A stretch of 64,000 bases of DNA, taken from assembly GCA_032622095.1 (NCBI GenBank), contig CP136068.1, forward strand, positions 158,481,465-158,545,464, written 5' to 3'. Below are positions 15,401 to 60,995 of the stretch, one piece after another. Under the pieces are notes generated by a model. That model had not been told where the DNA came from. It did no database searches and saw only the letters and a program-made list of their open reading frames with translations. The translations under genes and the position numbers were made by a program. Within the stretch, counting starts at the first letter, position 1, and the number at the start of each line of letters is the position of its first letter. The stretch comes from Siphonodentalium dalli. Taxonomy: Eukaryota > Mollusca > Scaphopoda > Gadilida > Siphonodentaliidae.

Positions 15401-16690
15401 TCAATCTTAAAACACTTCTTCTCAGTCAATATTAAAACTCGATTAATCCTACATGAATCTTAAAAACACTTCTCAGTCAATATTAAAACTCGATTAAACC
15501 TAAAATCAATCTTAAAAACACTTCTCAGTCAATTTTAAAACTCGATTAAACCTAAAATCAATCTTAAAAACACTTCTTCTCAGTCAATATTAAAACTCGA
15601 TTAATCCTAAATCAATCTTAAAACACTTCTTCTCAGTCAATATTAAAGCTCGATTAATCCTCAATCAATCTTAAAAACACTTCTCAGTCAATATTAAAAC
15701 TCGATTAAACCTAAAATCAATCTTAAAAACACTTCTTCTCAGTCAATATTAAAACTCGATTAAACCTAAAATCAATCTTAAAAACACTTCTTCTCAGTCA
15801 ATATTAAAACTCGATTAATCCTACATGAATCTTAAAAACACTTCTCAGTCAATTTTAAAACTCGATTAAACCTAAAATCAATCTTTAAAACTCTTCTTCT
15901 CAGTCAATTTTAAAACTCGATTAAACCTAAAATCAATATTAAAAACACTTCTTCTCAGTCAATATTAAAACTCGAGTAATCCTACATGAATCTTAAAAAC
16001 ACTTCTCAGTTAATTTTAAAACTCGATTAAACCTAAAATCAATCTTAAAAACACTTCTTCTCAGTCAATTTTAAAACTCGATTAATCCTAAAATCAATCT
16101 TTAAAACTCTTCTTCTCAGTCAATATTAAAACTCGATTAAACCTAAAATCAATATTAAAAACACTTCTTCTCAGTCAATATTAAAACTCGATTAAACCTA
16201 AAATCAATCTTTAAAACACTTCTTCTCAGTCAATATTAAAACTCGATTAAACCTAAAATCAATCTTAAAAACACTTCTCAGTCAATTTTAAAACTCGATT
16301 AAACCTAAAATCAATCTTAAAAACACTTCTCAGTCAATTTTAAAACTCGATTAAACCTAAAATCAATCTTAAAAACACTTCTTCTCAGTCAATATTAAAA
16401 CTCGATTAATCCTAAATCGATCTTAAAAACACTTCTTCTCAGTCAATATTAAAACTCGATTAATCCTAAAATCAATCTTAAAAACACTTCTCAGTCAATA
16501 TTAAAAATCAATTAATCCTAAAATCAATCTTAAGAACACTTCTTCTCAGTCAATATTAAAACTCGATTAATCCTAAAATCAATCTTAAAAACACTTCTCA
16601 GTCAATATTAAAAATCAATTAATCCTAAAATCAATCTTAAAAACACTTCTTCTCAGTCAATATTAAAACTCGATTAATCCTAAAATCAAT
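12427..16690 (+). repeat. AT-rich satellite, 49-55 bp unit, about 80 copies
   Basis: The unit reads roughly ATCTTAAAAACACTTCTCAG then TCAATATTAAAACTCGATTAA and CCTAAAATCA. Two length variants (TTCTCAG and TTCTTCTCAG) and base variants (TCC, ACC, ACATGA) alternate. Blocks 13020-13645 and 13646-14271 match almost perfectly, a 626-bp higher-order repeat with only two substitutions noticed. There are no ORFs and no unique spacers. A structural, recombination or heterochromatin role cannot be told from sequence. Confidence 0.95.
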
Positions 16691-16858
16691 CTTAATATCT
16701 TGATTTAATATAGAGATCATGCACGTGTATTCCCCGTGAATGGGATTAGCTATCAAACAATAGCTATAATCATCCCTCAGATTAAGTATTTGTTTATATG
16801 TAATCCTATAAGAATGACCTGTTAAAGATGGATTATCTCTTTAAAGATGGATTATCTC

Positions 16859-21224: not shown

Positions 21225-22116
21225 GCGGATCAATGTTCTGGTATATGATATTCGTCTCTGGTTCTGACCATTCCATTGGGCGCGGTTTTACACTCAGTTC
21301 AGATGTGTGCTCTTCCATATTTTTCAGGTTCCTGGTTGTGGACCTTCTATTGGGCGCAAATATAAATTCAGTTCCGTTTTGGGCTCCTTACATCATGTCC
21401 ATGCCCGTTGTTCGTGTCCGTATATTGGGCGCGGTTTTACATTCAGCTCACTCTTGCCTCTTCCAAAAACGCCATGTCGTTGCTTCTGGGATTCAGTAGT
21501 GGTTCTCCCCTTGCTTATCCGTAGAAATGTGACACTTTGTTTCGAATGAAATTCGCATTATTATTTTGTATCAAAAAAGCCTATAGTCTGCGTGTACTAT
21601 AATGCGAACATTTTGTGGTTTCAGATTTTAGCTATTTTTCAATGAATTGCTGCCCTTAATTATGTCTCCATCCATCTCTGCAGAGACTGTGGAGTTTCAC
21701 CCATGGTTCTTCTATTTGGGCACGGTTGTACATTCAGCTACATTTCATTGGGGTTTTTGTACAGGACTTACGTGTGCCTCGCCCTTATATTGGGTTCTAC
21801 ATTCAGCCCCTTCAAGTCCTTTTGTTTGGTTAATGTCTGTGTGCCTCGCCCTTATAATGGGTTCTACATTCAGCCCCTTCAAGTCCTTTTGTTTGGTTAA
21901 TGTCTGTTCCTCGCCCTTATATTGGGCGCGGTTTTGTATTCAGCTATATTTTTTATTTCTTACAGGATGTTTTTGCCTGTGGTTATCGCCCTTATATTGG
22001 GCGCGGTTTTGCATTCAGCTATATTTTTTATTTCTTACAGGATGTTTTTGCCTGTGGTTATCGCCCTTATATTGGGCGCGGTTTTGCATTCAGCTATATT
22101 TTTTATTTCTTACAGG
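21225..22116 (+). repeat. Array of decayed copies of the signal-peptide exon and its acceptor
   Basis: The last three units have an exact 75-bp period (ATG at 21967, 22042, 22117). Each holds an acceptor-like TTTTTTATTTCTTACAG, then ATGTTTTTGCC and TTATATTGGGCGCGG. Older diverged units are recognisable by (A/T)TTGGGCGCGGTTTTACA and ACATTCAG at about 21275, 21345, 21420, 21715, 21785 and 21850. 75 bp is 25 codons, so the frame stays open through the last copies (21922-22269). Each unit supplies an alternative acceptor and start codon for the downstream gene. Confidence 0.85.
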
Positions 22117-22265
22117 ATGTTTTTGCCTGTGGTTATCGCCCTTATATTGGGCGCGGTTTACGCTCAAGACGAGACGACCCAGAGGATTGAGCAACTGGAG
22201 AATACTGTCAACACTTTAGCTCGACAAGTTATGTTACAGCAACTATTCGTCGAAGAGAGAATACG
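22117..22265 (+). CDS. Coding exon 1: signal peptide and coiled coil
   Basis: It encodes residues 1-49 plus two bases of codon 50. MFLPVVIALILGAVYAQ is a typical signal peptide with cleavage expected after Ala16 or so. ETTQRIEQLENTVNTLARQV follows with heptad spacing of I, L, V, L. The ATG is two bases after an acceptor (TTTCTTACAG, ending 22115). The donor is ACG|GTAAGA at 22266. Two in-frame upstream ATGs at 21967 and 22042 belong to the 75-bp array, so the true start may vary with acceptor choice. Confidence 0.85.
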
Positions 22266-25200: not shown

Positions 25201-28200
25201 ATATGTGGTAGGAAAAATAACTGGAATAAAATCCTGAATTATACGGGAAATTTGGGGTGGGCGGGAAAAAATTATATTATATTGGTCGAAATCTAATAAC
25301 GGGAAATCTAAGTTTCGATCCGCTCAGTGTAAAATACAAACCAAACGTGTCTATATTCAGATCGGACGGTCGGTCTGGATTGAAGCAGATTCGACATAAT
25401 AAAGGAGGGACTCGGCCTTACTACTACGAGTCCCACACTCTGGATTCCGTCTGCCAGATACACGACCACAGTAACAACATAAGGACGGTCGGACTCGGAG
25501 AATTCATCGCTGTTCTCAACGGAGTGGAGTTCCGAACGCGTCACAACGACTACGCTCTTAAACAACCGTCGACAACGAGTACCAACTATCACGAGGTATA
25601 AACGGCAAACTCCATGCATGATTTATTAACACCACCAGGTGTATACTGTGGGCCAAATTATAAAATTCCGTGGTCGCATGTAGGTTTTATGGTTTTTCCG
25701 GTTTATTAGTTTAAAAGTCGAACTGCACGATCAGGAGGCTGGTCACCGGTTTATTAGTTTAAAAGTCGAACTGCGCGATCAGGAGGTCGGTCACCAGTAA
25801 ATGGTGTAGTTGGGAATTTCAATTTCGTATAATGTCCTTTACATTATTATGTCAATAATGTTGATTTTTGGTTTGTGACAAGCTATGTCAATTACCAATA
25901 AAAGAAATTTAAAAGATAATTTGTAAGTCTTATATTTCAACTTTTATAGATATATTTCGTTCTGCAGCCCACTGATGGTTGTGTTGTGATGGTATTATAG
26001 TTGCAGTATGCAATAATTATGACCTCGTTAATTGCTTTCGATCTTTAGGTATGAACAATGGCTGAACCATGCACTCTTGGCGGGAACACAATAATTAGTT
26101 GTTTTAACGGAATTCTGATGGGGTGAATTCATGTAACCAATATATTTCATATTATAATTTATATTTATGGCTAATAATATGATCTTGAGGGCGTTACCAT
26201 TTCTGACTATGGTTTTCTTGTACTTCCTTAACAGCGTTTGGCGTGACAACATAGTTGTTCGTAACAAACAATCGATATTGTTTGACCCGAAACATCGAGT
26301 CACCAATTGAGGTAAACCCTGCATGGAGTTTAGCCGGCATGTGTATTTTCTTAATTAAATCTAACATTTTTTATTGAAGTGTTTTGTCAGTTACAATTCA
26401 TTCCGGCTTGATCTGGACAATTTCAAAATGAATATGGACAGTTCAGTTTCTCAGAATAATGCAGAATTAATTGTAACCTACTAAAATCTCAAATAAATAA
26501 ATGTGATATTCCTTCACATTGCACGTAGGTGCGGGCAGCGGAAGTCCTGCGTATGGGACTGAAATCTGCATGGAGCTTGGGAAACTCCGTGCAAGGTTTA
26601 TCTCCCTTGCTGACCCGATAAGACCGCTGCCACTGGCGACATTTTACCAACATGTTTCTGACTTGCGCGATATAGATATAAATATACTAAGTGAACCGAG
26701 CCACATGTTGCCCTGATGAAGCACACAATATATCTAACAAAGGTTGCTTAAAGATGGATTATCTCTTTAAATAACAAATTTTAAATAGTTGCGTGGGTAT
26801 AAAATAATAGATATGAACTGAAGACCCCTGTCCGTAAAAGCTTCTATCAGTTAATATTGATTTTATTTCGAATATTAAATCGGGACCGTTTATGTGTCTA
26901 TTTTTAGAATAGACCATTCGGATGATACCATATTGCGACATAGAGCACTGGGCTCTTCATATGGCTACGCACCGAAAGTCAAATGTTCCAGATTGATTGT
27001 TTGTATTGTTTTGTTCCACAGATATAAGCGATAATGAGTATAATTAACGTTTATTTGTTACAAAATTGTACAATAAAATTTCGGGTATCTGTTAACAGTA
27101 ACCACTATTGTTCGTTAGCTGAACAAACACACCTTTTTAGACCAGAAAATATTCGAAATAAAATTAATATTAATCGATAGAAGCATTTCCGGACATGAGT
27201 CTTCGATTCAAATCTAATAGTTTATACCCCGGTAACTATATAATACATGTTACAAAGAGATAATCCACCTTTAAATTAGTTTACTACGTTTGGAAAGTCC
27301 CAATACAACTATTTCGCGAAATGCAGTGCTTTATCTCTCCGGTTCTTTTAATCTCATTAAAATGCGTTTGTAATAGACAAACTTAAAAATAATTTAAACT
27401 TAATTTATACATATATATTTATTTATTGTTAAGTTCCGAGTTCACAGTACAATGTGTAGACTCGGCGGTTAAAATAGATTCTGCATGGTTAGCGGAAACA
27501 AAGGACCGGGTCAGCGGAAACAAAGGGCCGGGTCAGCTGAAATAAAGGTCTCTTTTAGGTCTAATCACAATGTTAAAGTTATAATGGTGACACCATGTCA
27601 CACGCGTACGGCCAGGTTATGATATTTACAAGTTTAATACTTTTGGTATGCATGTTTTTTATCCAGTTCGATGGAGAATATGATCGACATAGAATGTAAC
27701 AACACACAGATTGGACATGACTTAGATATTTGTTTCTTTGTCATCTTTACAACTTATATATGAGATCGACCAATTGTTATTAAACCATATATATACGCCA
27801 CACCAATTAGAAATATTAGTGTTCATATTCTGAACCATATTCGAGATGGCTGCCAATATGGCCTTCAGAGTTGACAAAACTACATAAATTGGAAATTGGT
27901 GTAAACTGTATTAAGTTTTAATACATATAATTACATTACACAAAAATAATAGTAATTTTAATTATTATAATAATAGCATGGATTAGATTCGACATGAGAA
28001 GTTGAGCGGTAGTTTGTAACAAGACCTATCCACGGTGGGGAATCACGTGGTTTCGAGTTGATGAGTATCACACATTCAACAAGGCCGAATCCATGGCAAA
28101 CGCCACCAGAAACGAGGGAAAAGTTAATAATTTATGATAATGATATAGTACATAGTATTTTGACAGCTACGTTTGAGCATATGTTATTCTATTTTTCAAA

Positions 28201-31200
28201 CAAGCTGATACACTGGGAATTTGTGTCTAAACTCACAGTTGTTTGCTCTAACATTCTGGCCAAAGTCGAAGTATTTTCCTATGTTGTATTCCAAGAACAT
28301 CCAACTGGCAACTTTGCTCATAATGTTATAGAAAACTGCTGAGTATTTCCGAACAAATAATATATCATATGTTCGTAATAATCAACATGCTATATTTTGT
28401 GTCAGTTCCTCATATAGTATGATTTTGAGCGTTTGCACTCGCCTACGACATTTTTAATGCGTGATACTCCAACCTTGAAACCATGTGATTCCCCACCGTG
28501 CTATTCTTCTTTCTAGGTGGAGAACATTCCATTTCCCGAAGTACCACAGAGCGTCCTCGACATGCCGACACTGGACGAACAGATAGCGGAAATGCGCGAA
28601 TATTTCCGAGCGTATAAACTCCAGGACCCGACAATCCGGGACTACAAACCTTACTTCCGACCTGTTCTCTGTTACCTAGAGGGCGCTTGGCAATCGAAAA
28701 CAGACAGCATAGACGAACCATTCGACAGCGATCGGCACCACATCGACGCCAGTAGCTGGTTTGATTTGCAAGAGAAACTCATGTACACATCGAAAACAGG
28801 TTAATATAGAAAATAGAAAATCACTTGTACCCAGCCGGTGACAGAGTCTGTAATGAATTGAGTATGACTGGTGCGCTCCGGTAGAGATTGGCAGACGCCT
28901 TATCCGCCAGCTCCTCTCGTGCATTAATGAGTGTGTGCGAAACGCTCCATTATCGGCACAACCAATTAAAGTGATGTGAAACACCCCAGTATGGTGATCA
29001 AATAGAAATGGAGAATAATTTTGTTCAATGTAGTAATTTTTACAAATAGTATATCCAAATTGACAACACACACCGTCATTTTTATATATGAATTAAATGC
29101 AGTGACTCTCGATGGCTAAATCGTTTTCGATAGTTTATCGCCGATAGACGCGTCCCGAATCCAGTAGTAAATATTTACAATTGAGCCTAGTTCTGATGAT
29201 GTTTTCTATGGAATGGTAAGATGGATTTGCTTTAATTTTTTGGTAATGTTAGAAGAATGTTACATTCCTCCAGTTGTCATAGCGCCTGAATACTATCTTA
29301 ACAGTTTCACGCACCAGAACAAGTACATAATATGTCTTTAATTGTATACACCGGCTCTATCCGAATTACAACTAAGTTCAAGTAGGTTGGAACCATGAAT
29401 ATATCTTGTATAACCATGAATCTCTAAGCTGGAAACATTCCAAAGTGATGACGGGCGACATGTTTTTGAACCATTTGACTTCCTACTAGTAACACTCGTT
29501 GCGAGTTATCCTCTCTACGTTATTGTTTATGATATTTCGTTATTCCGAAGGTTCTTTGTTCCGAGGGTTTTTATACCGAAGATTCATGTTGACATAATAA
29601 AGAACATTCGGAATAAGAACCTTCGGAACAAAGATCCTTTGGAATAACCCTTTACCCAACAGAAGGGCCCTGTGCCAATGCATTCTCTTATATATGCGAG
29701 TCGACCATAGGTCGCCTCGTATATATAAGAGAATGCATTGGCTTAACACATTAAAAATTATAAAATTGTTAAAGAATGTAAGAATTTTTTTTTTAGGCCA
29801 ATGCATTCTCTTATATATGCGAGGCGACCTATGGTCGACTCGCATATATAAGAGAATGCATTGGCACAGGGCATAACTGTAACTATCACAATGTGGTCAA
29901 GGAGCCGGTTCCAATGATATCCATATTTGTATGGTTCTATTGAGACAGACCGAAGATATTTTAGGCTGTTGAAGCTTTATTTGGCCGGTTTTGGCCGTTT
30001 TGTTGGGTAAAGGGATAAACAAACTTCGAAATATAGATATGACCCCACACCTTGAATGTCAGAGTCCCACGTTTTTATGTTGATATGGATTCATTCAGTG
30101 ACCGCTTTGAACGCATCGGGAATTATCGGTTGGTGTTATCGTACATAAATGCATGACATTCCCAATGTGCATGTATTATCTCGTTGTCTCTCTGTCTGTC
30201 TGGTTATATTTCCTGAATATCCCTCCAGAATAACCGAATGGAAGAAATGGTTAATAAGTTCAAATCCGCCCATTCGCTACAATCATTCTGAAAGTCCGCG
30301 TCATGTACGTTTTCTGATTCGAATGGGATGGTCCCCTTCATTAGGAAATGCATTTGGGATTTAACCCTTTACCCAACAAAGCGGCCAAAAACGCCCAAAT
30401 AAAGCTTCAACAGCCTAAAATATCTTCGGTCTGTCTCAATAACACCATACAAATATGGATATCATTGGAATCGGTTCATTGACCACATTGTGATGGTTAC
30501 AGTTATGGCTTATGCCATGTGCCAATGCATTATCTTGTATATGCGAGTCGACCATAGGTCGCCTCGGATATATAAGAGAATGCATTGGCCTAAAAAAAAT
30601 CTTTTTTAACACTTTTTACCATTTTTTCTAACATTCTTTAACAATTTTATAATTTGTTCTTACATTTTTTTGACAATTTTATCATTTTTAATATGTGTTA
30701 AGCCAATGCATTCTCTTATATATGCGAGGCGACCTATGGTCGACTCGCATATATAAGAGAATGCATTGGCACCGGGCCGTTCTGTTGGGTAAAGGGTTAA
30801 TGCATGGCGTCATCGTTATATTAACTAAATGGCGGTCTTTTATTCAGGGCTCAAAGATACCAACGAGAACTACGCCTACCTCCCAACAACACTGGCAGAC
30901 GTTCTCGATGGAGGTCCAACTTACGCCCAATGGAACTACCGAATACTGTGTCACCAAATCCAGAAAGATATTAACCTCGATCGAATCCGCCCAGTTGACG
31001 ACGTATCAGCGAGAATGGCAAGGGACATAACTCTGGAGGAATATACCAACTCCAGGGCTGCGAGGTTTAACTTCAACGGGAAGGATAACTCTTTTCTGGT
31101 AAGTTAATAAAAAGTCTTGTTTCGCCGATATACGGAACTGTGTATTAGTACGCGGGTATGGGTCTCTGTTGGTGGTATCCAACTTGGGATTTCCAAATGA

Positions 31201-34200
31201 ATCCCCAAGTCATAATTTTCAAGTCCTCGAAATTCCGTTTGCACTGCCCCTCCCCCGTATTAGTCATCAATTCGTTCGTCGATTTGGTTCAAGTTTCGTG
31301 GTTCTGCATGTCCACAGGCCCCTGGGGAAAATTACTAAAATACCAATATAGACTATACCGCATAGTCTATATTGGTATTTTAGTAATTTTCCCCAGGGGC
31401 CTGTGCTTCTGTCAGTTTAGGAAACAAATGCAATGAAAGATTGGAATTTGGTGCATGGCAACTTTTTGTCAAGAGATCAGGTTTTGCAAGAAGGAATTAT
31501 CACGAAATACGGAGCACAACAAACATAAAATACCTCTTCTTCTTCAGAAAGACGATAAGTACCAATTTGGAATTATCGATGACATCATGGAAGAAATCCC
31601 AGGAAAAGATAACTATCCGGGGGTTTTAAGGGAGAACTCGTTCGGACAGACGGCATACAGATTCCGAGACGGCAACGAAGAGCTCAACGCGGGTCGCTAC
31701 CACAGAATGTACAGGTCCAAGGTCGCAGGCGCGCTCGGTCTGACTGTCCGGAACAGAGGATTCTCAGATGACAACTTGTTTGTCTCCGTGACGTCACACC
31801 AGAACATCGTCGAAGCATCAATCAACGACTGTAACACAGTGAATAAGGTTAGCCGTAATGCCCCTTTAAGTACATTGTACATTGATTTCTATAATTGCAA
31901 ATGTTTGGGTCTTTTCATTACATTCAGAATTTATACAGTCTAATAAATAGATATTGAATGAGCATTGCGTGTGTTGGTATTCTTAATCCGACATGCAACA
32001 CTCAAATTCGTTATATTAGTTTAAAACACGATACTTAACGAGACTTAATTAATTAGACGGGTTTTATCTGTTCTACATTTCAAGTGTTGTGTTGTCAGTC
32101 GCCGTGTCAATTGTCCGTGGCGATTGTTAAACCTTAAGTAGAGGGCACATGTAACTCCCTACTCGCTCGCAGAATCGTGAATATCAGTTAACAGAGAGGG
32201 GTGAATTATCCAAAACTTCAACATATCAAGAGGTAATATTTAGACTAAATTACATCAAAATTTGTCATTTGGGCTGGAACATAATCAAAATTGGTGTGAT
32301 AGCGCGTACCAGCCTTTTTGTTGAATCCCGAATACCGGTTAAATTGGGCATATTAAACCCGAGTACTAGATAACAGCGCCTGAAATGCTTGAATCCCGAG
32401 GGGGTGTCACCCTCTAAGTATATATAATGTTTGTTTTTCCCACGTTCTGTATATAGGATATATAGGTCAATAAACCCGGGATGTTCTTCCATATATAGGT
32501 ACTTTATATGCCCCGAAATAATACCACTAATCGATCCATTTTCATGCATATAGCGCATTATATATAGTTAAAGATGCACAATCCGAACTAACGCTCCTAC
32601 ACTCTTATAACTAATGTGTAGAAACGATTACACATCAAATGTGTAAACCCGGTTAATACACATAGCAATGTGTAGTTTTACATACAAATACATGGACCAA
32701 GGGCCGTTCTACACATAATGTGTATATTTTGTTACACACAATTGTGTAAGAACTTAGAGCATGCGCATTGCGGTGCCTTCAGTTCCATAGTCTGCAATAC
32801 ATGCCGGCCATATTGTTTGAGTATATTTTTTGGAATACAATCTACAGCGATCGTAGACAAGGACTGTAAGTTCAGAATTCCGACTTGTGGGTATATAGTA
32901 TTAATGATATATGAGGATTTATTTGTTAAAACTATCATGGCGAATACTGCCCTTAGACTCGTTTATATGATTGTTTGTAATACGGTAATACTAATATTAT
33001 GCAACCACGCCATGACCCTGGTTTGTTCATTTAAAACGAAAACTCACACATCACAGAGCAAAATATTACGTACCATTGTACGCCATGAAAGTTTTAACAT
33101 ATAAATCTCCATATGTCATCAGTACTATATACCCACAGTTCGGAATACTGAACTTATATTCTTGTCTACGATCTGTATGTGTAAGAATCTACACAAAATG
33201 AGTAAGGGATATATGTTTATTTTATGCACACCGGTGTATATTAATGTGTAGAAATTGACCCATTTATTGTGTACCAGGTAAGGTCTCCGTTGGGGTATGC
33301 ACCTTGAAATTTACAACTGCATCCCCCTTAATTTTTTCGCAAAAAAATATCATTTGCACCCACCCCCCATTTGGGTTGGAACGTTCTAACTGGTACCTCA
33401 AACTACTTTCCAACTATTGGCAAGTTAAAGTGATGTGAAACACTCCGGTTGGGTGATCAAATAGAAATGGAGAATAATCTTGCTCAAATATGCATAGTTC
33501 AGAGGATGATATCTACGGAGTGGTATGGTCGATTTGTTTGAGATTTTACGAAATGTTAGTAGAATGCTACATTGCCACAGTTGGCATAGTGCCTGAGTAC
33601 TAACTTATCAGTTTCACGCACCCGAACAACTCCATAATATGTCTTTAACGAAATTATCACATTCAAACTATATATATATATAATTCAGGAAGAGACGTGC
33701 ACGCGTTACTCCCGTGCTATCCTACTGGAGTCTAACACTCTATAACCCATCTCTATAATTCATGTCATGAACATTGGTGGGCGTTATATACAATATATGA
33801 TACAGATCTCGAACAGTGTAGTATCATATAGTAAACTTGGGGAACTGTACCATATCATAGTATAATTAATCTGTATGAGAAACATGGGATACTGTGACTA
33901 ATCATTATATACATTTACACACAGCCGTGCATTTTACACGACCAGTATTATAGGTAATCTTATGACAAATATGTTTGAAGACGCTTTGCTTTTAACTAAA
34001 TCTAAAACATTCATTTCTAAAATGCCTTTGGTTAACCTGCCGCTGACATTGTCTCCGTCATTATAGTGTGCTAAGTGTGCTGTTCCCTTACCCTGTTAGT
34101 CGTGTTACCTGGTCAAACCACCACTTACCTATATATTGGTTACATATCAAAACAAACCCATTGAGAGCCCCTCATATAATGGAGCAGACGACAATCAATG

Positions 34201-37200
34201 GTGCATGCTTCCATATGTGTGGGACTGCCTGTGGGTTCACAATCATGCAGTGCATTACTCTGGTATGTCGTTCTAGTATGCTAGGTGTGGCGATCGCTTA
34301 CCATGACAGTCGCGTTACCTGGTCATACCAGCGATGTATATATATCTCATTTACGTCCATGGTCATACACACAACTATAATGGTTACATATATAAAATAA
34401 CACTATATTTCAGGTAGAGACATGTACGCCTTACTCCAGTCGAGTTTCCTATGCTATTCCACTGGAGCTTGTGATATTGACGCCCCTGTTGTCATGGAAC
34501 CCATACGATATAGCATTTAAAGGGTGGCCAGGCGGCATCGACGGAAAAACTGTAGAGGTCGGAGGTCGTAACGGAGGGCTCACGCCAGATAAAGCATGGG
34601 ACGGCAACCACAATCAGATATTTTACCGGACTCCTAAGGAGCTGTTTGATGGGTCGGAGATCGGGAAAGATCCCGCTGATACAGCCAAGCCACTAGTCGG
34701 AGTCCTCGATCAAACAGGTGAGTCTCTTGGTACGATCCCGGCGATACAGCCAAGGAGCAAGTCGGAGTCCTCGGTCAAACGGGTGAGTCTCCTGGTACGA
34801 TCCCGGCGATACAGTCAAGCAGCAAGTCGGACCTCGACCAAACAGGTGAGTCTCCTGGCACGATCCCGGCGATACAGTCAAGCAGCAAGTCGGAGTCCTC
34901 TATCAAACAGGTGAGTCTCCCGCAAACACAGCCAAGCAACTAGTCGGCGTCCTCGATCAAACAGGTGAGTCTCCTGGCACGATCCCGGCGATACAGTCAA
35001 ACAGCAAGTCGGAGTCCTCGATCAAACAGGTGAGTTTCTTGGTACGATCTCGGCGATACAGCCAAGCCACTAGTCGGATTCCCCGATCAAACAGGTGAGT
35101 TTCCCACAGGTACAGTCAAGCCTCTAGTGGGAGTCCTCGATCAAACAGGTGAGTCTCTTGGCGCGACCCCGGCGATACAACCAAGCCACTAGTCGGAGTC
35201 CCCGATCAAACAGGTGAGTCCCTTGGTACGATCCCGGCGATACAGCCAAGCCGCTAGTGGGATTCCTCGATCAAACATGTGAGTCTCTTGGCACGATCCC
35301 GGCGATACAGCCAAGCCGCTAGTGTGAGTCCTCGTTCAAACAGGTGAGTTTCTTGGTACGATCCCGGCGATACAGTCAAGCCACTAGTGGGAGTCCTCGT
35401 TCAAACAGGTGAGTCTTATGGCACGATGCTGGCGATACAGTCAAGCCACTAGTGGGAGTCCTCGTTCAAACAGGTGAGTCTCATGGCACGATGCTGGCGA
35501 TACAGTCAAGCCACTAGTGGGAGTCCTCGTTCAAACAGGTGAGTCTCATGGCACGATGCTGGCGATACAGTCAAGCTACTAGTGGGAGTCCTCGTTCAAA
35601 CAGGTGAGTCTCCTGGCACGATGCCGGCAATATAGCCAATTAAGCCGCTAGTCGGAATCCTCGATCGAACAGGTGAGTCTCTTGGTACGATCCCGGCGAT
35701 ACAGTCAAGTCGCTAGTCGGATTCCTCGTTCAAACAGGTGAGTCTCCTGGCACGATGCCGGCAATATAGCCAATTAAGCCGCTAGTCGGAATCCTCGATC
35801 GAACAGGTGAGTCTCTTGGTACGATCCCGGCGATACAGTCAAGCCGCTAGTCGGATTCCTCGTTCAAACAGGTGAGTCTCACGGCACGATCCCGGCGATA
35901 CAGTCAAGCCGCTAGTGGGAGTCATCTATCAAACAGGTGAGTCTCTTGCATACACAGCCAAGCCGCTAGTGGGAATCCTCGATCAAACAGGTGTGTCTCC
36001 TAGTACGATCCCGGGGATACAGCCAAGCCACTAGTCGGATTCCTCGATCAAACAGATGAGTCTCTTGATACGATACCGGCGATACAGCCAAGCCACTAGT
36101 GGGAGTCCTCGATCAAACAGGTGAGTCTCTTTGTACGATCCCGGCAATACAGCCAAGCTACTCTCGCACACACAGCCAAGCCGCTAGTCGGAGTCCTCGA
36201 CCAAACAGGTGAGTCTCGCGGCACGATGCGAATGTGGTGAGAGAAGTGGTGGCATCCGGAACGAGAATTATCATTCCTGAAATGGAAGGCATCGGACTGG
36301 TCCGCACCAGATATCACATAATGCCCATCCATGCAGAAAGCAGCGCCGCTTGATGGGAACTTGACGTAGTCAAATAAAACCCTGTGCCAATGCATCTCTT
36401 ATATATGCGAGTCGACCATAGGTCGCCTCGCTATAAGAGAATGCATTGGCCCCACAAATTTTAAACTATTTTTTATAATTGTTAAAAGATGTAGGAAAAA
36501 ATAAAAATAAAAAAATGTTAAAGAATGTAAGAAACAATTAATATTTTTTTTTTAAATTGTTAAATAATGTAAGAAAAAATGATGGAAATTGATAAAGAAT
36601 GTAAGAAAAAATGATTAAAAATATTATACAATTGTAACAGAATGTAAGAAAAAATTATGAAAATAATACAATTGTTAAAGAATGTAAGAAAAAATTATAA
36701 AAAATTATTTGCACAGGTGTGGTGAGAGAAGTGGTGGCATCCGGAACGAGAATTATCATTCCTGACATGGAAGGCGTCGGACTGGTCCGCACCAGATATC
36801 CCATAATGCCCAAACATGCAGAAGGCAGCGCCGCTTGGCGGGAACTTGACGCAGTCAAAGAAAACCCTGTGCGAATGCATTCTCTTATATATGCGAGTCG
36901 ACCATAGGTCGCCTCGCATATATAAGAGAATGCATTGGCCCCACAAATGTTATACTATTTTTTATAATTGTAAAAAAATGTAGGAAAAAATGATAAAAAA
37001 AATATAAAAAATTGTTAAAGAATGTAAGAACAAATTATGGAAATTGATAAAGAATGTAAGAAAAATGATAAAAAATTATACATTTGTAACAGAATGTAAC
37101 AAAAATTATGAAAATGATACAATTGTTAAAGAATGTAAGAAACAATTATAAAAAAATTTATTTGCACAGGTGTGGTGAGAGAAGTGGTGGCATCCGGAAC

Positions 37201-38110
37201 GAGAATTATCATTCCTGACATGGAAGGCGTCGGACTGGTCCGCACCAGATATCCCATAATGCCCAAACATGCAGAAGGCAGCGCCGATTGGCGGGAACTT
37301 GACGCAGTCAAAGAAAACCCTGTGCCAATGCATTCTCTTATATATGCGAGTCGACCATAGGTCGCCTCGCATATATAAGAGAATGCATTGGCCCCACAAA
37401 TGTTATACTATTTTTTATAATTGTAAAAAAATGTAGGAAAAAATGATAAAAAAAATATAAAAAATTGTTAAAGAATGTAAGAACAAATTATGGAAATTGA
37501 TAAATAATGTAAGAAAAATGATAAAAAATGATACAATTGTAACAGAATGTAAGAAAAATTATGAAAATGATACAATTGTTAAAGAATGTAAGAAACAATT
37601 ATAAAAAAAATTATTTGCACAGGTGTGGTGAGAGAAGTGGTGGCATCCGGAACGAGAATTATCATTCCTGACATGGAAGGCGTCGGACTGGTCCGCACCA
37701 GATATCCCATAATGCCCATACATGCAGAAGGCAGCGCCGCCTGGCGGGAACTTGACGCAGTCAAAGAAATGCTTCTCAATCTCAACACTAACAAATACCT
37801 TCTGCACGAGCAGCCGAATTTCGTGTTGGGCGAGGATCCTACAGCAGGGTTGGTGCACATGCGAATACAGGACACGGTACAGATGGAGCCCGGTAATCAC
37901 CATCACGATGTTTACGTGTCCGCAGACGACCTCGGGACGGTAACTGATGGTGTGACGCGTATCACGGCATGGACTACGTCATCATTACAGCACCAACATG
38001 AAGTAGAAATCGGATATGACTTGAACGTGTCCAAATACAAGATATATACATGCGACGGTGTCAGCGTATGCTGGGATAAACATCCTAAAGTTCTGCTGTT
38101 TGTTGAGTAA
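22117..38110 (+). CDS. Secreted protein of unknown function, seven coding exons, 669 aa
   Basis: The gene model joins 22117-22265, 25361-25595, 28517-28799, 30848-31098, 31548-31847, 34414-34717 and 37623-38110. All introns are GT..AG, phases agree (2,0,1,0,0,1) and the total is 2010 nt including TAA. The product has a 17-residue signal peptide, a coiled coil (about residues 18-50), then a cysteine-poor body (seven Cys) with no domain I can name. The sequence style resembles an uncharacterised secreted family I associate with molluscs and amphioxus, which is recollection only. No enzymatic motif is visible. Introns are rich in transposons, and three junctions are tandemly amplified. An extra 5' untranslated exon is implied by the acceptor directly before the ATG. 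Substantial confidence in structure, none in function. Confidence 0.85.
22487..22942 (+). mobile_element. TTAAAG family 1, copy D (intron 1)
   Basis: The element is complete at 456 bp, from TTAAAGGCACTCAATCCGAT to GGATTGTGCATCTTTAA, with TTAA at both ends. It is the best-preserved copy and defines the terminal repeat. It lies in intron 1 of the secreted-protein gene. Confidence 0.85.
22943..24520. other. Intron 1 sequence without recognised genes
   Basis: No exon fits the flanking phases. A short hairpin (TTATTTTCAATGGAAAGGGA with its inverted copy) lies at about 23759-23829. Confidence 0.5.
24521..24681. repeat. 161-bp near-perfect palindrome in intron 1
   Basis: Arms start ATAAGGATTAACTGTCATGT and meet at AAAACCCGAAGGGTTTT. 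Only a couple of mismatches are visible. It is a fold-back element, or an intronic hairpin if transcribed. Confidence 0.9.
25361..25595 (+). CDS. Coding exon 2 of the secreted-protein gene
   Basis: The acceptor TCTATATTCAG ends at 25360 and the donor GAG|GTATAA follows 25595. It completes codon 50 (CG+A) and ends in phase 0 at residue 128. It contains GGTRPYYYESHTLDSVCQ and VEFRTRHNDYALKQPSTT, a tidy globular-protein composition. Local GC is clearly higher than in flanking intron, as expected of coding sequence. Confidence 0.88.
26389..26477. mobile_element. 89-bp miniature inverted-repeat element, copy 2
   Basis: It matches 11964-12051 across its length, with ends GTTACAATTCATTC and GAATTAATTGTAAC. 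Confidence 0.7.
26748..27274 (+). mobile_element. TTAAAG family 2 element, copy 2 (intron 2)
   Basis: The element is 527 bp from TTAAAGATGGATTATCTC to GAGATAATCCACCTTTAA and aligns end to end with 16859-17385. Both copies have the inner fold-back, so it is a property of the family. Confidence 0.85.
28517..28799 (+). CDS. Coding exon 3 of the secreted-protein gene
   Basis: The acceptor TCTTCTTTCTAG ends at 28516 and the donor ACAG|GTTAAT follows 28799. It starts in phase 0 and ends in phase 1, residues 129-222. It contains MPTLDEQIAEMREYFRAYK, FRPVLCYLEGAW and HHIDASSWFDLQEKL. Acidic and aromatic residues alternate as in a folded domain. No catalytic signature is recognised. Confidence 0.9.
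28968..29345 (+). mobile_element. TTAAAG family 3 element, copy 1 (intron 3)
   Basis: It starts TTAAAGTGATGTGAAACACC and ends near AATATGTCTTTAA, so TTAAAG..CTTTAA termini are again present. A shorter copy is at 33425-33650. No ORF. Confidence 0.65.
29540..29643. repeat. Fold-back repeat at the left edge of the next element
   Basis: TTATTCCGAAGGTTCTTTG recurs inverted as CAAAGATCC(TT)GGAATAA and CTTCGGAACAAAG. The palindrome-bearing element at 29644 begins immediately at its right end. Confidence 0.65.
29644..30017 (+). mobile_element. piggyBac-like palindrome element with ATAA flanks (intron 3)
   Basis: Ends CCCTTTACCCAACA and TGTTGGGTAAAGGG match the 400-bp family, but both flanks read ATAA instead of TTAA. 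Palindromes lie at 29674-29742 and 29797-29865. The length is about 374 bp because the AT spacer is shorter. Confidence 0.85.
30361..30800 (-). mobile_element. piggyBac-like palindrome element, inverted copy (intron 3)
   Basis: TTAA flanks lie at 30361-30364 and 30797-30800, with termini TTAACCCTTTACCCAACA and its complement. Palindromes are at 30521-30589 and 30702-30770. Its end lies only 47 bp before the exon 4 start at 30848. Confidence 0.88.
30848..31098 (+). CDS. Coding exon 4 of the secreted-protein gene
   Basis: The acceptor TTTTATTCAG ends at 30847 and the donor CTG|GTAAGT follows 31098, a consensus site. Residues 223-306. It contains NENYAYLPTTLADVLDGG, WNYRILCHQIQKDINL and ARMARDITLEEYTNSRAA. 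Phase 1 in, phase 0 out, matching both neighbours. Confidence 0.9.
31315..31404. repeat. 90-bp near-perfect palindrome in intron 4
   Basis: CACAGGCCCCTGGGGAAAAT recurs inverted as ATTTTCCCCAGGGGCCTGTG around a short TATACCGCATA centre. It occupies about a fifth of this 449-bp intron and would fold in the pre-mRNA. Confidence 0.95.
31548..31847 (+). CDS. Coding exon 5 of the secreted-protein gene
   Basis: The acceptor CTTCTTCTTCAG ends at 31547 and the donor AAG|GTTAGC follows 31847. It is exactly 100 codons, phase 0 on both sides, residues 307-406. It contains DDIMEEIPGKDNYPGVL, YRFRDGNEELNAGRYHRMY and GLTVRNRGFSDDNLFVSVT. A symmetric exon can be skipped without a frame change. Confidence 0.9.
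32597..33290. mobile_element. Short element with ACACTCTTATAACTAATGTG end, copy 2
   Basis: It shares its left end, the GTGTAAGAATCTACACAAAATG words and ATGTGTAGAAAT..CCCATTTAT..TGTGTA with 18820-19437. The right terminus has decayed. A 128-codon open frame at 32718-33104 lies wholly inside the element and shows no protein family. Confidence 0.6.
33425..33650 (+). mobile_element. TTAAAG family 3 element, copy 2 (intron 5)
   Basis: It matches both ends of 28968-29345 with an internal deletion, from TTAAAGTGATGTGAAACACT to AATATGTCTTTAA. Confidence 0.65.
33684..33745 (+). pseudogene. Decayed copy of the exon 6 acceptor and start
   Basis: AATTCAGGAAGAGACGTGCA, then CGCGTTACTCC and GTGCTATCCTACTGGAGTCT, match the true exon 6 start (ATTTCAGGTAGAGACATGTA and onward) with deletions that break the frame. 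It lies about 730 bp upstream of the true acceptor. Confidence 0.75.
34414..34717 (+). CDS. Coding exon 6 of the secreted-protein gene
   Basis: The acceptor CACTATATTTCAG ends at 34413. The first donor ACAG|GTGAGT follows 34717 and is a perfect consensus. Residues 407-507 plus one base. It contains SRVSYAIPLELVILTPLLSW, WPGGIDGKTVEVGGRNGG and ADTAKPLVGVLDQTG. The last ~35 bases of this exon and its donor are the unit amplified in the following array. If a later donor is used the frame stays open to 34914, so a few extended isoforms are possible. Confidence 0.88.
34718..36231 (+). repeat. Minisatellite of about 24 exon 6 donor copies (intron 6)
   Basis: Units of about 53-75 bp each contain GATACAGCCAAGCCACTAGT, GGAGTCCTCGATCAAACAG and GTGAGTCTC. 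These are the last ~35 coding bases of exon 6, the 5' splice site and ~25 intronic bases. About 24 donor positions are visible counting the real one, and nearly all keep GTGAGT; exceptions are about 35989 (GTGTGT) and 36053 (ATGAGT). The first donor is the one in phase with exon 7. Confidence 0.92.
36232..36385 (+). pseudogene. False exon 7 copy a, no acceptor
   Basis: It matches the first ~150 bases of exon 7 (TGTGGTGAGAGAAGTGGTGG onward) and is fused directly to the last unit of the donor array, so no AG acceptor precedes it. It ends at ..GTCAAATAAAACCCTGTG, where a 69-bp palindrome (36386-36450, slightly shortened) takes over. Confidence 0.88.
36386..36716. repeat. Palindrome and AT-rich spacer between false exons a and b
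   Basis: The palindrome at 36386-36450 is followed by repeated GTTAAAGAATGTAAGAAAAA motifs typical of the palindrome element. The stretch ends TTATTTGCACAG, which serves as an acceptor-like site before copy b. Confidence 0.85.
36717..36870 (+). pseudogene. False exon 7 copy b, with acceptor
   Basis: The acceptor-like TTATTTGCACAG ends at 36716, and about 150 bases match exon 7 in phase. The copy ends AAAGAAAACCCTGTGCG and runs into the palindrome at 36871-36939, where a TAG stop falls at the palindrome centre. Splicing here would replace most of the exon 7 C-terminus with a short tail. Confidence 0.88.
37170..37323 (+). pseudogene. False exon 7 copy c, with acceptor
   Basis: This is the same structure as copy b, 453 bp downstream and nearly identical, with the palindrome at 37324-37392 and a following AT spacer to 37622. 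The true exon 7 starts exactly 453 bp further on, so b, c and the true exon start form a regular tandem array. Confidence 0.88.
37623..38110 (+). CDS. Coding exon 7 and stop of the secreted-protein gene
   Basis: The acceptor TTATTTGCACAG ends at 37622. Residues 508-669, then TAA at 38108-38110. It contains ASGTRIIIPDMEGVGLVRT, YPIMPIHAEGSAAWREL, EPGNHHHDVYVSADDLG and two Cys near the C-terminus (TCDGVSVCW). Upstream of the acceptor there is no polypyrimidine tract; the sequence is purine-rich and resembles the AT spacer of the palindrome element. This is the only copy that reads through AAAGAAATGCTTCTC into the C-terminal half. Confidence 0.9.
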
Positions 38111-44835: not shown

Positions 44836-46130
44836 ATGGCTGACGGAATACAGACGAGGGGTAAAAAACAAGATTACCAGAAAATGTTGAAAGGAAATTA
44901 CACTCAATCTGAATCTGAGATCGAAATAACACGGGATCCAGAAAGACTAAAATCTACAGTAGTAATTCCCAAGATGGAAACACAATTACCATGGGAAGAC
45001 AACCCAGAGGAGATAGTTCGAATGAAGAACGAAAAAACATTGAACAGAAAAGAGTTACCAAAACCAGTAAGGTACGGAAGACACGATAACACTAGATATC
45101 AGGACACCTGCAGTTCCGATGATGACGATGATGAAGCAGAGTTGTTACGAAAATACGAGGAGACAAGATACAGACGAGAAAAAATGGAAAAACGGGATAT
45201 GAAGAAAAGACTGAAAGAAAAGATAAGAGAAGAAGAAGATGAGATTGAAAGATTACAAAGAAAGAGAACAACGGAAGGTAAAAAAAATTAACTTGCCGCC
45301 AAAAAAGTTAATAGACATTGGGTTGAAAGAGTTAAGGAATGATCATGAGTCCAGAGTAAAAGCTGAAAAACAGCTCAAAAAATTAAAAATTATTGACAAA
45401 AGTTCATCGTGCCCTGAATCCTCATCATCTGAATCAAGCGAGAATGATTCAGACTCACATAGATATAAGAAAAGGTCTTCTTGTAAGAAAAAAGTTTCAG
45501 GCTTGGAGACAAATCCATCTATGAAAGTTAAATTTCCCCAAGCATGTCCACAGGCTTATTTACAAATGGAATATGTAAACCGCAAGGTGGATTTCAAAAG
45601 TTTGAGTTTGAATCAATTTTTTGCTGGGGAGATGGAAATTATTGTAGCTTGTGATGATGATGAGGAACAGAAAGGCAGGATGAACTTGTTAATGAAGATA
45701 GCATATTATCATGACAAATATGATTGGTCCTCATTACTAGATTTCTATGCGGCTTGGATTCGTCGCATAGAATATGGGCAGAGCTCATGGGATGATGATC
45801 CAACAAAAATAGAACCCCAATTTTGGCCGGGAATTTCAAGAGGAAATCAAATATTCTTCCGAAAAAGTCAGGCAATTTCCAAAGGGAAAATTTGTAAATA
45901 AACGATTTGGATCATTTGGTAATGTTAGTAACAGCACCAATGAATCAAAAGGTGAAGTTTGGTATTGTCCTGATTATCAGAGAGGACTCTGTTCAATCCC
46001 AAATGCTCATTACAAGTTTATCAGGGGTGAAATGAGGAATATGGCACACATTTGTTCAACTTGCTACCAGAGGGACAGGTCACAAAAAAATCACCCAGAA
46101 AATTCTGTTGAGTGCCCTCATAAGAAATGA
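44836..46130 (+). pseudogene. gag: Ngaro gag, two frameshifts
   Basis: It starts at ATG 44836 and continues in three frames: 44836-45291, 45239-45901, then to TGA at 46128-46130. The first shift is at the A8 run near 45282 and the second lies between about 45810 and 45870. The N-terminal third is highly charged (EEDEIERLQRKR, coiled-coil-like) with a Ser/Asp-rich linker. The C-terminus has Cys/His motifs CPDYQRGLC..H and ICSTCYQRD..ECPHKK, like the zinc-finger region of DIRS/Ngaro gag proteins that bind nucleic acid. The product would package element RNA. Confidence 0.8.
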
Positions 46131-46145
46131 CAATTAGAAACTACA

Positions 46146-47951
46146 ATGTTCCAAACTGTAAAACAGAAAACAGCATTAGTTTCTGACAACAACATTGAAT
46201 GTGAAAATCCATCTGGTAGCAATATTGACAACAATGATGGGCCAAATAATCACATTGATAAATTGGATATTAATGAAAGGGGGGGGGGCAGAAACACATA
46301 ATGCAGTGACTCAAACGATAATTGAAGTGCACAATGAAGTTTTACAGTCCGGACGTTGTAATGCGCTTGGATGTAAGATTCCAATTTACTCAAGGTTAAA
46401 TATAGAATACATTCAAGAATTCTTATATGGTTACAATGACAGGGAAATCCTTAAATTCTTGAATTATGGATTCCCTATTAATTTTGAAGGGAACGTAGAG
46501 GAAATTAAATTTAAACACACAATGAACCACAAAGGGGCGAGGGAACACACGTTAGAAATTGAAAACTATCTAAAAAATGAGATAGAAAACAAGGCAGTGA
46601 TAGGCCCCTTTGCTGACAATCCATTCAAATCAAAGGTGGTCTTATCCCCTCTCAACACGGTTTCAAAGAGAGACTCTGTTGAACGGAGGATAATTTTGGA
46701 TCTAAGTTTTCCTCCGAATAACTCGGTGAACTCATTTATTCCCAAAGATACATATATGGGGGAAAACATCACAATTAAGTATCCAACAGTTGATGATCTA
46801 GTAGATTTAATCAAATCTCAAGGAAATGGAACTGTATTAATGTGGAGAAGGGACTTACGAAGAGCGTACAGACAAATACCTTGTTGTCCAGGGGATATCC
46901 ATCTCCTGGGATATAAATTCCAAGAAAAATTATACTTTGATCATGTGTTGACAATGGGTTTGCGATCAAGTGCATATATTTTTCAAAGAGTTTCGAATGC
47001 ATTTGCATTCATAGCTCTTAAGCATGGAATCACAATTATAAACTATCTGGATGATATGGCATCGGCACAGATAGCTAATGAGGCAGAAAGCTCATTCAAT
47101 TGCTGGGTAACATAATGGAGAAATGTGGATTGGAGGAATCAAAATCAAAAGCTTGTGCACCGTCCACAAAAATGGTATTCCTTGGGGTACAATTCGATAC
47201 TGTTCAGAAATCATTAACAATAACAAAAGAGAGACTCCATGAAATATTATTGTTAGTAGATGAATGGTTAATCAAGCCGAAGGTTTCATTGCACGAATTA
47301 CAAAGTCTGTTGGGAAAGCTGAATTTTGTATCAAATTGTGTAAAACCAGGAAGGTTATTTGTTTCCCGATTGTTAAATTGGTTACGAACTTTGGATTCAT
47401 CTAAACCCAACAAGAAAATCAATATCCCAACTGAAATAAAATCAGATTTAAAGTGGTGGTCATTGTTTCTGCCAAACTTCAATGGAGTATCAATGATGTT
47501 TTATGATGAATGGAGTCAACCAGATGCCATATTAGCGACAGATTCGTGTCTAGTGGGCATTGGTGGGATTTATGGATGTCAATGTTTTCATGCACAGTTT
47601 CCGATTCATATTCTTGACCAGAAATTACATATCAATGCTCTCGAATTGCTTGCAATTGTTGTATCAGTGGGCTTATGGGGCAAATCCTTCACTGGCAAAA
47701 GAATATTAGTTTATTGTGATAATCAATCAACAGTTTCTGTGTTGAATTCAGGTGCTACAAAGGATATTTTTCATCAAAAATGCTTAAGAGAAATTTGCTA
47801 TGTAGCAGCAATTTATGAATTCCAGATTAGGGCTCAATATTATCCAGGTGAACAGAATAGATTGGCAGACTCATTGTCAAGGTGGTACTTAGATGCACAG
47901 TATAAGACAAGATCCATAAATGATACACATGGCTTGTATAAGGAAATTTAA
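46146..47951 (+). pseudogene. pol: Ngaro reverse transcriptase-RNase H, frameshifted
   Basis: The natural start is probably ATG 46146, in the frame read until a G10 run at 46279-46288. The frame then shifts to 46195-47115 and shifts again near 47100 to run until 47951. The RT palm is evident: LDLSFPPNNSVNSFIP, WRRDLRRAYRQIP, LTMGLRSSAYIFQR and the catalytic YLDD at 47044-47055. RNase H follows with ATDSCLVGIGG (Asp), HINALELLAIV (Glu), VYCDNQSTVSVLNSG (Asp) and NRLADSLSRW (Asp). All key acidic residues are present, so only the frameshifts disable it. It copies element RNA into DNA. Confidence 0.88.
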
Positions 47952-47999
47952 ATTCCACAAAGGTTATTCAATTTTTCTAATACATGGTAAATTTCAGAC

Positions 48000-48976
48000 G
48001 AACAACTAAGAAAATTGGCCAAAGAAACAAAGGTTTCATGATGTTCAGCCTTCGCGAAAGGAACTTACAGTAATTTAGAGACTCAGTTCAAAACATTCTT
48101 ACAATTTTGTTTTTATTTCAAATTTGATCCATTTCCGGTTGAAGAAAATGTGCTTAATTATTATGCACAGTTTCTTAGCAGGTCTTTCAAGTCTGTCACA
48201 TCGGTAAAAAAAACTATATTTCTGGAGTAAAAACACTGCATGCCATGTTAAATTTAGATTGCGAGGCTGTATAATCTTATTCATTGAAATTAGTACTGAA
48301 GGGTATTGCCAGACGGCAACCTTATTTGCCAAAGAGAGCAAGTCCAATCACAATTGAAATTTTGAGAAAAGTAGCACAAATTATCGATTTCAATAATCCA
48401 CTGCACACAACAATGTGGGGCATAATGTTGTTTGGGTTTTTTCTGATGGCTAGAAAATCAAATGTATTGGTAGATTCAATCAGTAAATTTGATTTGAATA
48501 AAGTGCTGAAACGAGAAGATATAACAGTTGAAAACAACTTTTTGCAAGTCAAATTTGGATGGTCAAAAACTATCCAATTTGGAGAGAACGAATTATTAAT
48601 ACCTTTAGTAGCCATTCCTGGACATATCCTTTGTCCAGTTTCAGCATATAACAGAATGGTGAATATTGTAAAAACGGTCGGTAAAAGCCCAGCATTTGTT
48701 AGAAAGACTGGAAAAGGTCTTGTACCAATTACCTACAACTACTTTACTCAGTTTTTACGTGACAGACTTGATAAGATCGGAGAAGAGTCCGAATTACATG
48801 TATTCTCATCACATTCACTGAGAAGGGGTGGGGCATTATATGCCTTTCAGTCTGGAGTTTCGGCTGAACTCATTCAGTTACATGGAAACTGGATTAGTGA
48901 TGCCTATAAAATCTATTTGGAATTCACTCTAAAGGACAGATTATCAGTTACCCAAAAAATGGTTGAGAACATGTAG
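48000..48976 (+). pseudogene. Ngaro tyrosine recombinase, broken N-terminal part
   Basis: The catalytic half is open from 48284 to 48976. It carries the first Arg in LMARKSNVL, the HxxR box in SHSLRRGGALYAF, and the nucleophile region HGNWISDAYKIYL with Tyr, the R-H-R-Y set of tyrosine recombinases. Upstream, a core-binding domain (about 48040-48270) is recognisable but interrupted by a TGA near 48040, a frameshift at an A8 run near 48206 and a TAA at 48270. The enzyme integrates the cDNA circle and replaces the usual retroviral integrase. Confidence 0.85.
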
Positions 48977-53484: not shown

Positions 53485-53884
53485 TTAACCCTTTACCCAA
53501 CAGAACGGCCCTGTGCCAATGCATTCTGTTATATATGCGAGTCGACCATAGGTCGCCTCGCATATATAAGAGAATGCATTGGCTTAACACATTAAAAATT
53601 ATAAAATTGTTAAAGAATGTAAGAAAAAATGGTAAAAAGTGTTAAAAAAAGATTTTTTTTAGGCCAATGCATTCTCTTATATATGCGAGGCGACCTATGG
53701 TCGACTCGCATATATAAGAGAATGCATTGGCACAGGGCATAACTGTAACTATCACACTGTGGTCAAGGAGCCGGTTCCAATGATATCCATATTTGTATGG
53801 TTCTATTGAGACAGACCGAAGATATTTTAGGCTGTTGAAGCTTTATTTGGCCGGTTTTGGCCGGTTTGTTGGGTAAAGGGTTAA
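53485..53884 (+). mobile_element. 400-bp piggyBac-like palindrome element, copy 1
   Basis: TTAA lies at both ends, with termini TTAACCCTTTACCCAACA and TGTTGGGTAAAGGGTTAA. Palindromes are at 53515-53583 and 53663-53731, with an AT spacer between and GGCCGGTTTTGGCCGGTTT near the right end. No ORF. It must be moved by a transposase encoded elsewhere. Confidence 0.92.
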
Positions 53885-56106: not shown

Positions 56107-56506
56107 TTAACCCTTTACCCAACAGAACGGCCCTGTGCCAATGCATTCTCTTATATATGCGAGTCGACCATAGGTCGCCTCGCATATATAAGAGAATGCA
56201 TTGGCTTAACACATTAAAAATTATAAAATTGTTAAAGAATGTAAGAAAAAATAGTAAAAAGTGTTAAAAAAAGATGTTTTTTAGGCCAATGCATTCTCTT
56301 ATATATGCGAGGCGACCTATGGTCGACTCGCATATATAAGAGAATGCATTGGCACAGGGCATAACTGTAACCATCACAATGTGGTCAATGGGCCGGTTCC
56401 AATGATATCCATATTTGTATGGTTTTATTGAGACAGACCGAAGATATTTTAGGCTGTTGAAGCTTTATTTGGCCGGTTTTGGCCGGTTTGTTGGGTAAAG
56501 GGTTAA
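56107..56506 (+). mobile_element. 400-bp piggyBac-like palindrome element, copy 2
   Basis: Exactly 400 bp including both TTAA flanks, with palindromes at 56137-56205 and 56285-56353. It is inserted in the TTAA of the family 1 end (ATAATCCGAATTAACGCT); the final CGCT resumes after the right TTAA. Confidence 0.93.
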
Positions 56507-60595: not shown

Positions 60596-60995
60596 TTAAC
60601 CCTTTACCCAACAGAAGGGCCCTGTGCCAATGCATTCTCTTATATATGCGAGTCGACCATAGGTCGCCTCGCATATATAAGAGAATGCATTGGCTTAACA
60701 CATTAAAAATAATAAAATTGTTAAAGAATGTAAGAAAAAATGGTAAAAAGTGTTAAAAAAAGTTTTTTTTTAGGCCAATGCATTCTCTTATATATGCGAG
60801 GCGACCTATGGTCGACTCGCATATATAAGAGAATGCATTGGCACAGGGCATAACTGTAACAATCACGATGTGGTCAAGGAGCCGGTTCCAATGATATCCA
60901 TATTTGTATGGTTTTATTGAGACAGACCCAAGATAATTTAGGCTGTTGAAGCTTTATTTGGCCGGTTTTGGCCGGTTTGTTGGGTAAAGGGTTAA
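60596..60995 (+). mobile_element. 400-bp piggyBac-like palindrome element, copy 3
   Basis: Again exactly 400 bp with TTAA at both ends and palindromes at 60626-60694 and 60774-60842. It is in the same orientation as copies 1 and 2, with very few differences visible. Confidence 0.93.

Follow-up and report, generated by a model that had tools for sequence, protein, structure and literature searches.

The window, i.e. the whole 64-kb stretch of DNA analysed here (C8:158481465-158545464, within a searched genome of 2.23 Gb in 9 contigs), hosts a gene modelled with seven coding exons, AG/GT borders, compatible phases and a single open frame of 669 codons (Table 1). A similarity search retrieved 489 relatives of the encoded protein at E <= 0.001, mostly 43-52% identical, the named ones belonging to cnidarians, molluscs, annelids and one brachiopod, and many residues are invariant among 34 of these relatives. 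The family is conserved over several animal phyla, yet it has neither a Pfam family nor a fold match in the PDB: no Pfam family matched the host protein, its search against solved structures returned no relative (best E 0.39), and the model of a scallop relative (P0009, mean pLDDT 78.6) found no fold match in the PDB at E <= 0.001. A search for relatives of the gene in viral contigs found none. Judged by eye, the N-terminus of the protein looks like a signal peptide.

Table 1. Features of the host gene and its repeats (positions are those of the window), followed by two arrays located elsewhere in the genome
Feature	Position	Strand	Basis
Coding exons 1-5	22117-22265, 25361-25595, 28517-28799, 30848-31098, 31548-31847	+	Gene model
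Exon 6, 304 nt; its last 49 nt (34669-34717) are repeat copy 1	34414..34717	+	Gene model, splice sites, phases
Exon 7, last coding exon including the stop codon, reached via the third acceptor copy	37623..38110	+	Gene model, frames
Minisatellite, 24 units, 65-bp consensus (49 exon-like + 16 intron-like), each exon-like part ending with a donor-like 9-mer	34669..36227	+	TRF, unit listing, genome search
Donor 1, GTGAGT, sole donor leading to the 669-aa protein	34718..34723	+	Frames; relatives' conserved junction; intron position in paralogues A and B
Donors 2-4 (34783, 34846, 34911), reached by the open frame, exon 7 then out of frame	34783..34916	+	Frame analysis
Donors 5-24, all downstream of the in-frame stop 34912-34914	34965..36214	+	Frame analysis
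5' fragment of exon 7 without acceptor, fused to the end of the minisatellite	36233..36379	+	Read from sequence and acceptor contexts
Tandem repeat of 453 bp, 2.7 copies with 96% matches, composed of the exon 7 start, a truncated foldback element and an acceptor; AG ends 36716, 37169, 37622	36554..37769	+	TRF, acceptor contexts
75-bp tandem repeat, 3.3 copies, 99% matches, over the start codon of coding exon 1 and the acceptor before it	21911..22159	+	TRF
L073 array, 70 bp x 16.1, starting at the donor of an exon ending in EGF_CA			Pfam E 2.3e-9
L081 array, 64 bp x 5.1, starting at the donor of an exon ending in TSP_1			Pfam E 1.2e-6

The donor of exon 6 is the first of a long series. If up to two mismatches are allowed, CAGGTGAGT matches 24 sites between positions 34715 and 36206, and 20 of them are exact (CAG/GTGAGT, the slash marking the splice border); 23 of the sites have GT and the remaining one has ATGAGT. 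All 20 exact 9-mers of the 64-kb window lie on its plus strand inside the array, and the minus strand has none. A 20-base core allowing up to three mismatches recovered 24 places, where 100 shuffles gave a mean of 0.01. These counts bear out the first-pass annotation, which had described about 24 donor copies in a unit that spans the exon 6/intron 6 junction and mostly keeps a full consensus donor. Its figure of some 35 coding bases per unit has to be corrected, since the 65-bp period given by TRF comprises 49 bases from the end of exon 6 followed by 16 of the intron. Dividing the array at the exon copy gives 24 units, 17 of 65 bp, three of 54, two of 69, one of 63 and one of 88, the last being a fusion whose donor was lost through deletion. 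Wherever those bases exist, units 2-24 lack the CT that the exon copy has at unit positions 8-9, as expected from one founder. A genome search with the first 182 bases of the array placed all 11 matches, among the best-scoring candidates, in C8:158516133-158517691, which is the array itself (window 34669-36227).

Frame analysis singled out the pairing of donor 34718 with the last acceptor (AG ending at 37622) as the only one that yields the 669-aa protein. Donors 2, 3 and 4 lead to 531, 552 and 587 aa, and donors 5-24 to a 572-aa product whose stop sits 53 to 1297 nt upstream of the exon junction; donor 1 joined to either earlier acceptor gives 570 aa ending in a mobile-element part. An open frame had been thought to reach the first three or so donors; it reaches four, counting donor 1, although after donors 2-4 exon 7 is no longer read in its frame. 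Because these three break the frame and all later ones lie behind the stop, the donor copies can neither stand in for donor 1 nor give rise to full-length variants.

Two intron-bearing paralogues on the minus strand of C8 (A, ~158.340-158.383 Mb; B, ~158.445-158.465 Mb) have an intron at the same position, with donor ACCAAACAG/GTAGAA and acceptor GTTCACAG/GC, and one further intron that splits exon 6. The corresponding donor is single in both, with no TRF tandem array over it, so that the array of the host gene arose, or was lost elsewhere, after the host gene and A/B parted. Creation of the intron itself by tandem genomic duplication was also considered and rejected, since the intron predates the array, being found at that position in A and B without it. 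Intron gain via tandem duplication of AGGT is described in PMC3443670, and our locus resembles that process in its tandem copies of a segment bearing AG/GT, unlike it in that here the intron existed before. The genome holds in addition two intronless copies of the host gene, at C5:156718064-156720040 and C9:59464176-59465828, with open frames of 686 and 607 aa; these are possibly retrocopies.

Arrays that straddle a donor have been reported in human genes. The 31-bp VNTR of CBS, c.1444_1467+7(16_21), is present in 16-21 copies at the exon 13/intron 13 boundary (PMC2630376); it is polymorphic and its length is associated with lower enzyme activity (PMC5188458). Its name denotes 24 coding and 7 intronic bases, and a donor copy is therefore expected in every unit. 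In ABCA7, the VNTR of intron 18 has a 25-bp unit starting with the exon 18 donor and 23.7 copies in the reference (PMC5954066). The array described here begins at an authentic donor, carries a consensus donor in most units and has a unit that is both coding and intronic. Like that of CBS, its unit holds an exon end together with the first intron bases; unlike the CBS repeat, which is 31 bp long, human, polymorphic and linked to activity, it consists of 24 units of 65 bp and is known from the sequence of one assembly. It shares with ABCA7 a start at the exon's own donor, a donor brought by each unit and about 24 copies, whereas the ABCA7 unit begins at GT and is intronic and 49 of the 65 bases are exonic in our case. 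The array belongs to this known kind; what is added here is that such arrays recur in a single genome and that the gene has copied acceptors too. It had been called unusual, and this holds, although it is not unique, CBS and ABCA7 being alike and further exon-end arrays being found in the same genome.

We regard it as probable that the array is a tandem duplication hidden from the mRNA: exon definition would let the first donor prevail, and some transcripts would escape into unproductive forms. What was computed here is the anatomy of the locus, the fact that one donor-acceptor pair alone is productive, the intron already present in the paralogues and the absence of codon-position constraint (see below); we infer that exon definition operates, that donor 1 is preferred and that some transcripts leak and decay. 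A 65-bp segment over the exon 6/intron 6 junction would have been tandemly duplicated and would have grown to about 24 copies via ordinary minisatellite turnover. Such a duplication would be silent provided that the spliceosome takes the first donor, which leaves all later copies in the intron. Exon 6 is flanked by introns of 2566 and 2905 bp and is likely recognised through exon definition, which would favour the donor nearest to the exon's own acceptor, that is donor 1; use of later donors would extend the exon from 304 up to 1795 nt. In minigenes built with 365-nt flanking introns and a pair of identical CAG/guaagu donors 52 nt apart, the upstream donor is reported to be used exclusively, and the same source has the upstream of two near-equal donors favoured under exon definition (PMC9225289). 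The older proximity rule, by which the donor nearest the acceptor is favoured (Reed and Maniatis, cited in PMC9225289), would predict use of the last copy, opposite to exon definition. Folding of the RNA that would hide donors found no support in region 34620-34930, which is no better folded than shuffles (z -0.59).

The array is probably not wholly silent. In ABCA7 the canonical donor is used and retention of one unit, by use of the second donor, amounts to 2 +/- 1% of transcripts (PMC5954066); by analogy, we expect minor leakage from later donors here. A small share of transcripts would probably take donor 2 or later, giving frameshifted or truncated products, the latter being likely targets of nonsense-mediated decay. 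Longer ABCA7 arrays also increase skipping of the next exon (PMC5954066), so the silence of an array is not assured.

The same observations can be read, with a much smaller though still appreciable probability, as functional donor competition, the copies binding U1 and the length of the array tuning the amount of productive mRNA by diverting transcripts to frameshifted or decaying forms. Nineteen further sites carry the exact 9-mer of donor 1, so they should have the same intrinsic strength, and each copied site leads to a non-productive product. The reported drop of CBS activity as the number of 31-bp repeats rises (PMC5188458) and the increase of ABCA7 exon 19 skipping with repeat length (PMC5954066) point in this direction, whereas retention of an ABCA7 unit is stated to be independent of array length (PMC5954066). 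The donor columns are, moreover, the quietest of the array, but this conservation is weak and not general. Off-consensus cells number 4 of 216 in the donor 9-mer and 142 of 1298 elsewhere in the unit, and the donor columns take 4 of 89 parsimony steps (column-permutation p 0.03), or 4 of 101 in an alternative alignment of 23 of the 24 units (p 0.0018). Over-dispersed gamma-Poisson models gave p values from 0.019 to 0.068 depending on the background, and when no position is specified in advance, the probability that the unit holds at least one stretch of 9 columns as quiet as this is 0.54. In the EGF-exon array donor changes were 0 of 135 against 48 of 908 elsewhere (p 0.14); a third array had 13 of 135 against 14 of 298 (p 0.92), its donor not being conserved. 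The expectation that donor bases would be better conserved than the rest of the unit is thus borne out in the host gene, weakly, and not in every array. Plain neutrality does not predict quieter donor bases, though the effect is a weak one that one other array lacks, and selection on the donor copies is unproven.

It is tempting to speculate, although we consider it improbable, that the array is a ladder of recursive splice sites, erasable stepwise whatever its length. Most units have an AG directly before the donor (CAAACAG/GTGAGT), and whichever unit supplied the AG for donor 1, splicing would take out an integral number of units and leave CAG/GTGAGT again in the same frame. Pyrimidines make up 7-10 of the 16 bases at -20 to -5 of the unit AGs, compared with 6-13 of 16 at the gene's seven own acceptors, and the bases beside the AG are CAAA. 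Donor-bearing minisatellites recur at exon ends of this genome, and one on C3 (L084, see below) has a pyrimidine-rich tract before the AG in most listed units; if the reading is true, ladders of this kind might repeatedly allow genes to tolerate repeats that expand at their splice junctions.

We find it very hard to credit that the array provides tandem in-frame microexons, with AG sites inside the units (GATACAG, ACACAG, TTTCCCACAG) paired with the next donor and adding, for instance, AKPLVGVLDQT. It is true that 22 of the 28 AG-to-donor pairs examined are open and a multiple of three, but open pairs are expected because the units derive from coding sequence; adjoining units would leave introns of ~32 nt, and such an insertion is seen in none of the 120 relatives aligned over the junction (out of the 489). 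The segment joining exons 6 and 7 has equal length in 116 of these and one extra residue in the other 4. Over the 46 columns of the exon-like part, parsimony steps distribute as 16:19:19 by codon position, and because changes fall evenly the repeats look untranslated. The exitron-like translated isoforms proposed in the first-pass annotation are not supported either, the unit lengths breaking the frame besides these codon-position and junction-length counts. Coding repeats or an exitron were accordingly rejected, in view of the 65-bp unit, the stop at 34912-34914, the even codon positions and the relatives without insertion.

An assembly error that multiplied one junction is an equally remote prospect. 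Minisatellites are difficult to assemble, and the 75-bp and 453-bp repeats of the gene, whose copies are 99% and 96% alike, could for that reason have wrong copy numbers; the 24 units of the donor array, however, differ by 15% on average and include distinct length variants that an assembler would not invent, and they lie on a chromosome-sized contig. We attach practically no weight to the idea, also put forward earlier, that the copies buffer against donor mutation, i.e. that they are selectively kept backup donors shielding exon 6 splicing if donor 1 is mutated: most are still consensus donors, but 3 of the 23 others shift the frame, 20 are behind the stop and none gives the full protein, which contradicts the idea unless the shorter products have a function.

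The hidden-duplication reading would apply as well to the copied acceptors of exons 1 and 7, where by the same logic the last copy must be used. The 453-bp repeat includes the acceptor of exon 7 and its first 147 bases. The 75-bp repeat has three copies of TTTCTTACAG/GATG and carries the exon 1 acceptor, the ATG and part of the putative signal peptide, each unit being 25 codons in frame. In the translations of paralogues A and B (L041, L042) two diverged copies of the exon 1 unit (window 21911-22265) can be recognised by eye, where TRF reported none. Paralogue B has a 115-bp tandem array of 3.2 copies over its exon 6 acceptor (L040, reverse complement 389-760), with TTTTATAG/GTAGAGG kept in 2 of 3 copies. 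A known counterpart of these acceptor-crossing duplications in host exons 1 and 7 and in paralogue B exon 6 is CBS c.844_845ins68, a human polymorphism with two copies of the intron 7/exon 8 junction, the distal one being used (PMC2630376). TRF arrays cover 19% of the window, and repeats are not enriched at the splice junctions of the gene: TRF arrays contain 3 of the 13, and shifting the whole set to other places in the window gives means of 2.1 to 2.6.

A foldback element whose ends form hairpins (-46.2 kcal/mol for the core hairpin) is frequent, its loop sequence occurring 21 times in the window; its places include 36380-37622, 748-1071, 3693-3945, 29694-29864, 53535-53730, 56157-56352 and 60646-60841, and its terminal heptamer GCACAGG is exact at 7 of the 9 right ends listed. 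All three exon 7 acceptors read GCACAG/G, the foldback heptamer, and are preceded by an element-like AT-rich core; the acceptor of exon 7 may for this reason have come from the element.

Similar arrays were sought in the whole genome as three CAGGTRAGT motifs spaced 40-70, which gave 1101 + 1210 matches compared with 335 + 271 for the reversed 9-mer; with CAGGTGAGT only, the figures were 278 + 181 and 138 + 17 for the control. The number of donor-bearing arrays is not clearly raised by this sequence criterion, because a few large arrays carry the excess of matches and, on C1 up to 232 Mb, the matches listed correspond to 9 donor and 8 control loci. Flanks were inspected at 12 array loci, of which 8 come from the 9 in the C1 list and the other 4 are all those that appeared newly in the list of the CAGGTGAGT-only search. 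Two arrays start at the donor of an exon with a recognisable domain (Table 1); L074, L077 and L084 are weaker cases that begin after an open frame with an upstream acceptor-like AG and without a Pfam match. At the other 7 of the 12 loci a position at an exon is not evident (L075 and its near copy L080, L076, L078, L079, L082, where the stretch inspected lies within the array, and L083). The donor-bearing array of L084, of 59 bp and at least ~75 units, occupies C3:2694083-2698571 and beyond, and most of its listed units contain a pyrimidine-rich TTTATCTTACTACAG/GTGAGT, like a recursive splice site. Another, L076 (C1:95774500-95780500), is a 57-bp array of 94.8 copies with a consensus unit of TCTTGTTTTATAG, 14 bases and CAG/GTAAGT, as if a very small exon stood between an acceptor and a donor.

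These loci suggest that many intron minisatellites may have begun as duplications of exon ends. A duplication across a splice site leaves no trace in the mRNA only where one particular copy prevails, namely the first of the donors or the last of the acceptors. About 24 near-identical donors with distinguishable products constitute a natural experiment on the choice made by the spliceosome, including the effects of distance and copy number. The human CBS and ABCA7 arrays have been linked to enzyme activity and disease risk, and a natural series of such arrays within a single genome would help to establish under which conditions they do no harm.

The remainder of the window includes retrotransposon-like open frames at 44836-48976, among them one that resembles a reverse transcriptase, as judged by eye, and one that resembles a tyrosine recombinase and has 46 relatives (best identity 51%), some of them annotated as integrase or PF00589. 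The open frame at 61744-62607 matched PP2C phosphatase (E 1.4e-6), and positions 12428-16695 are occupied by a 4.3-kb satellite-like array of 80 copies of a ~55-bp unit with strong GC skew.
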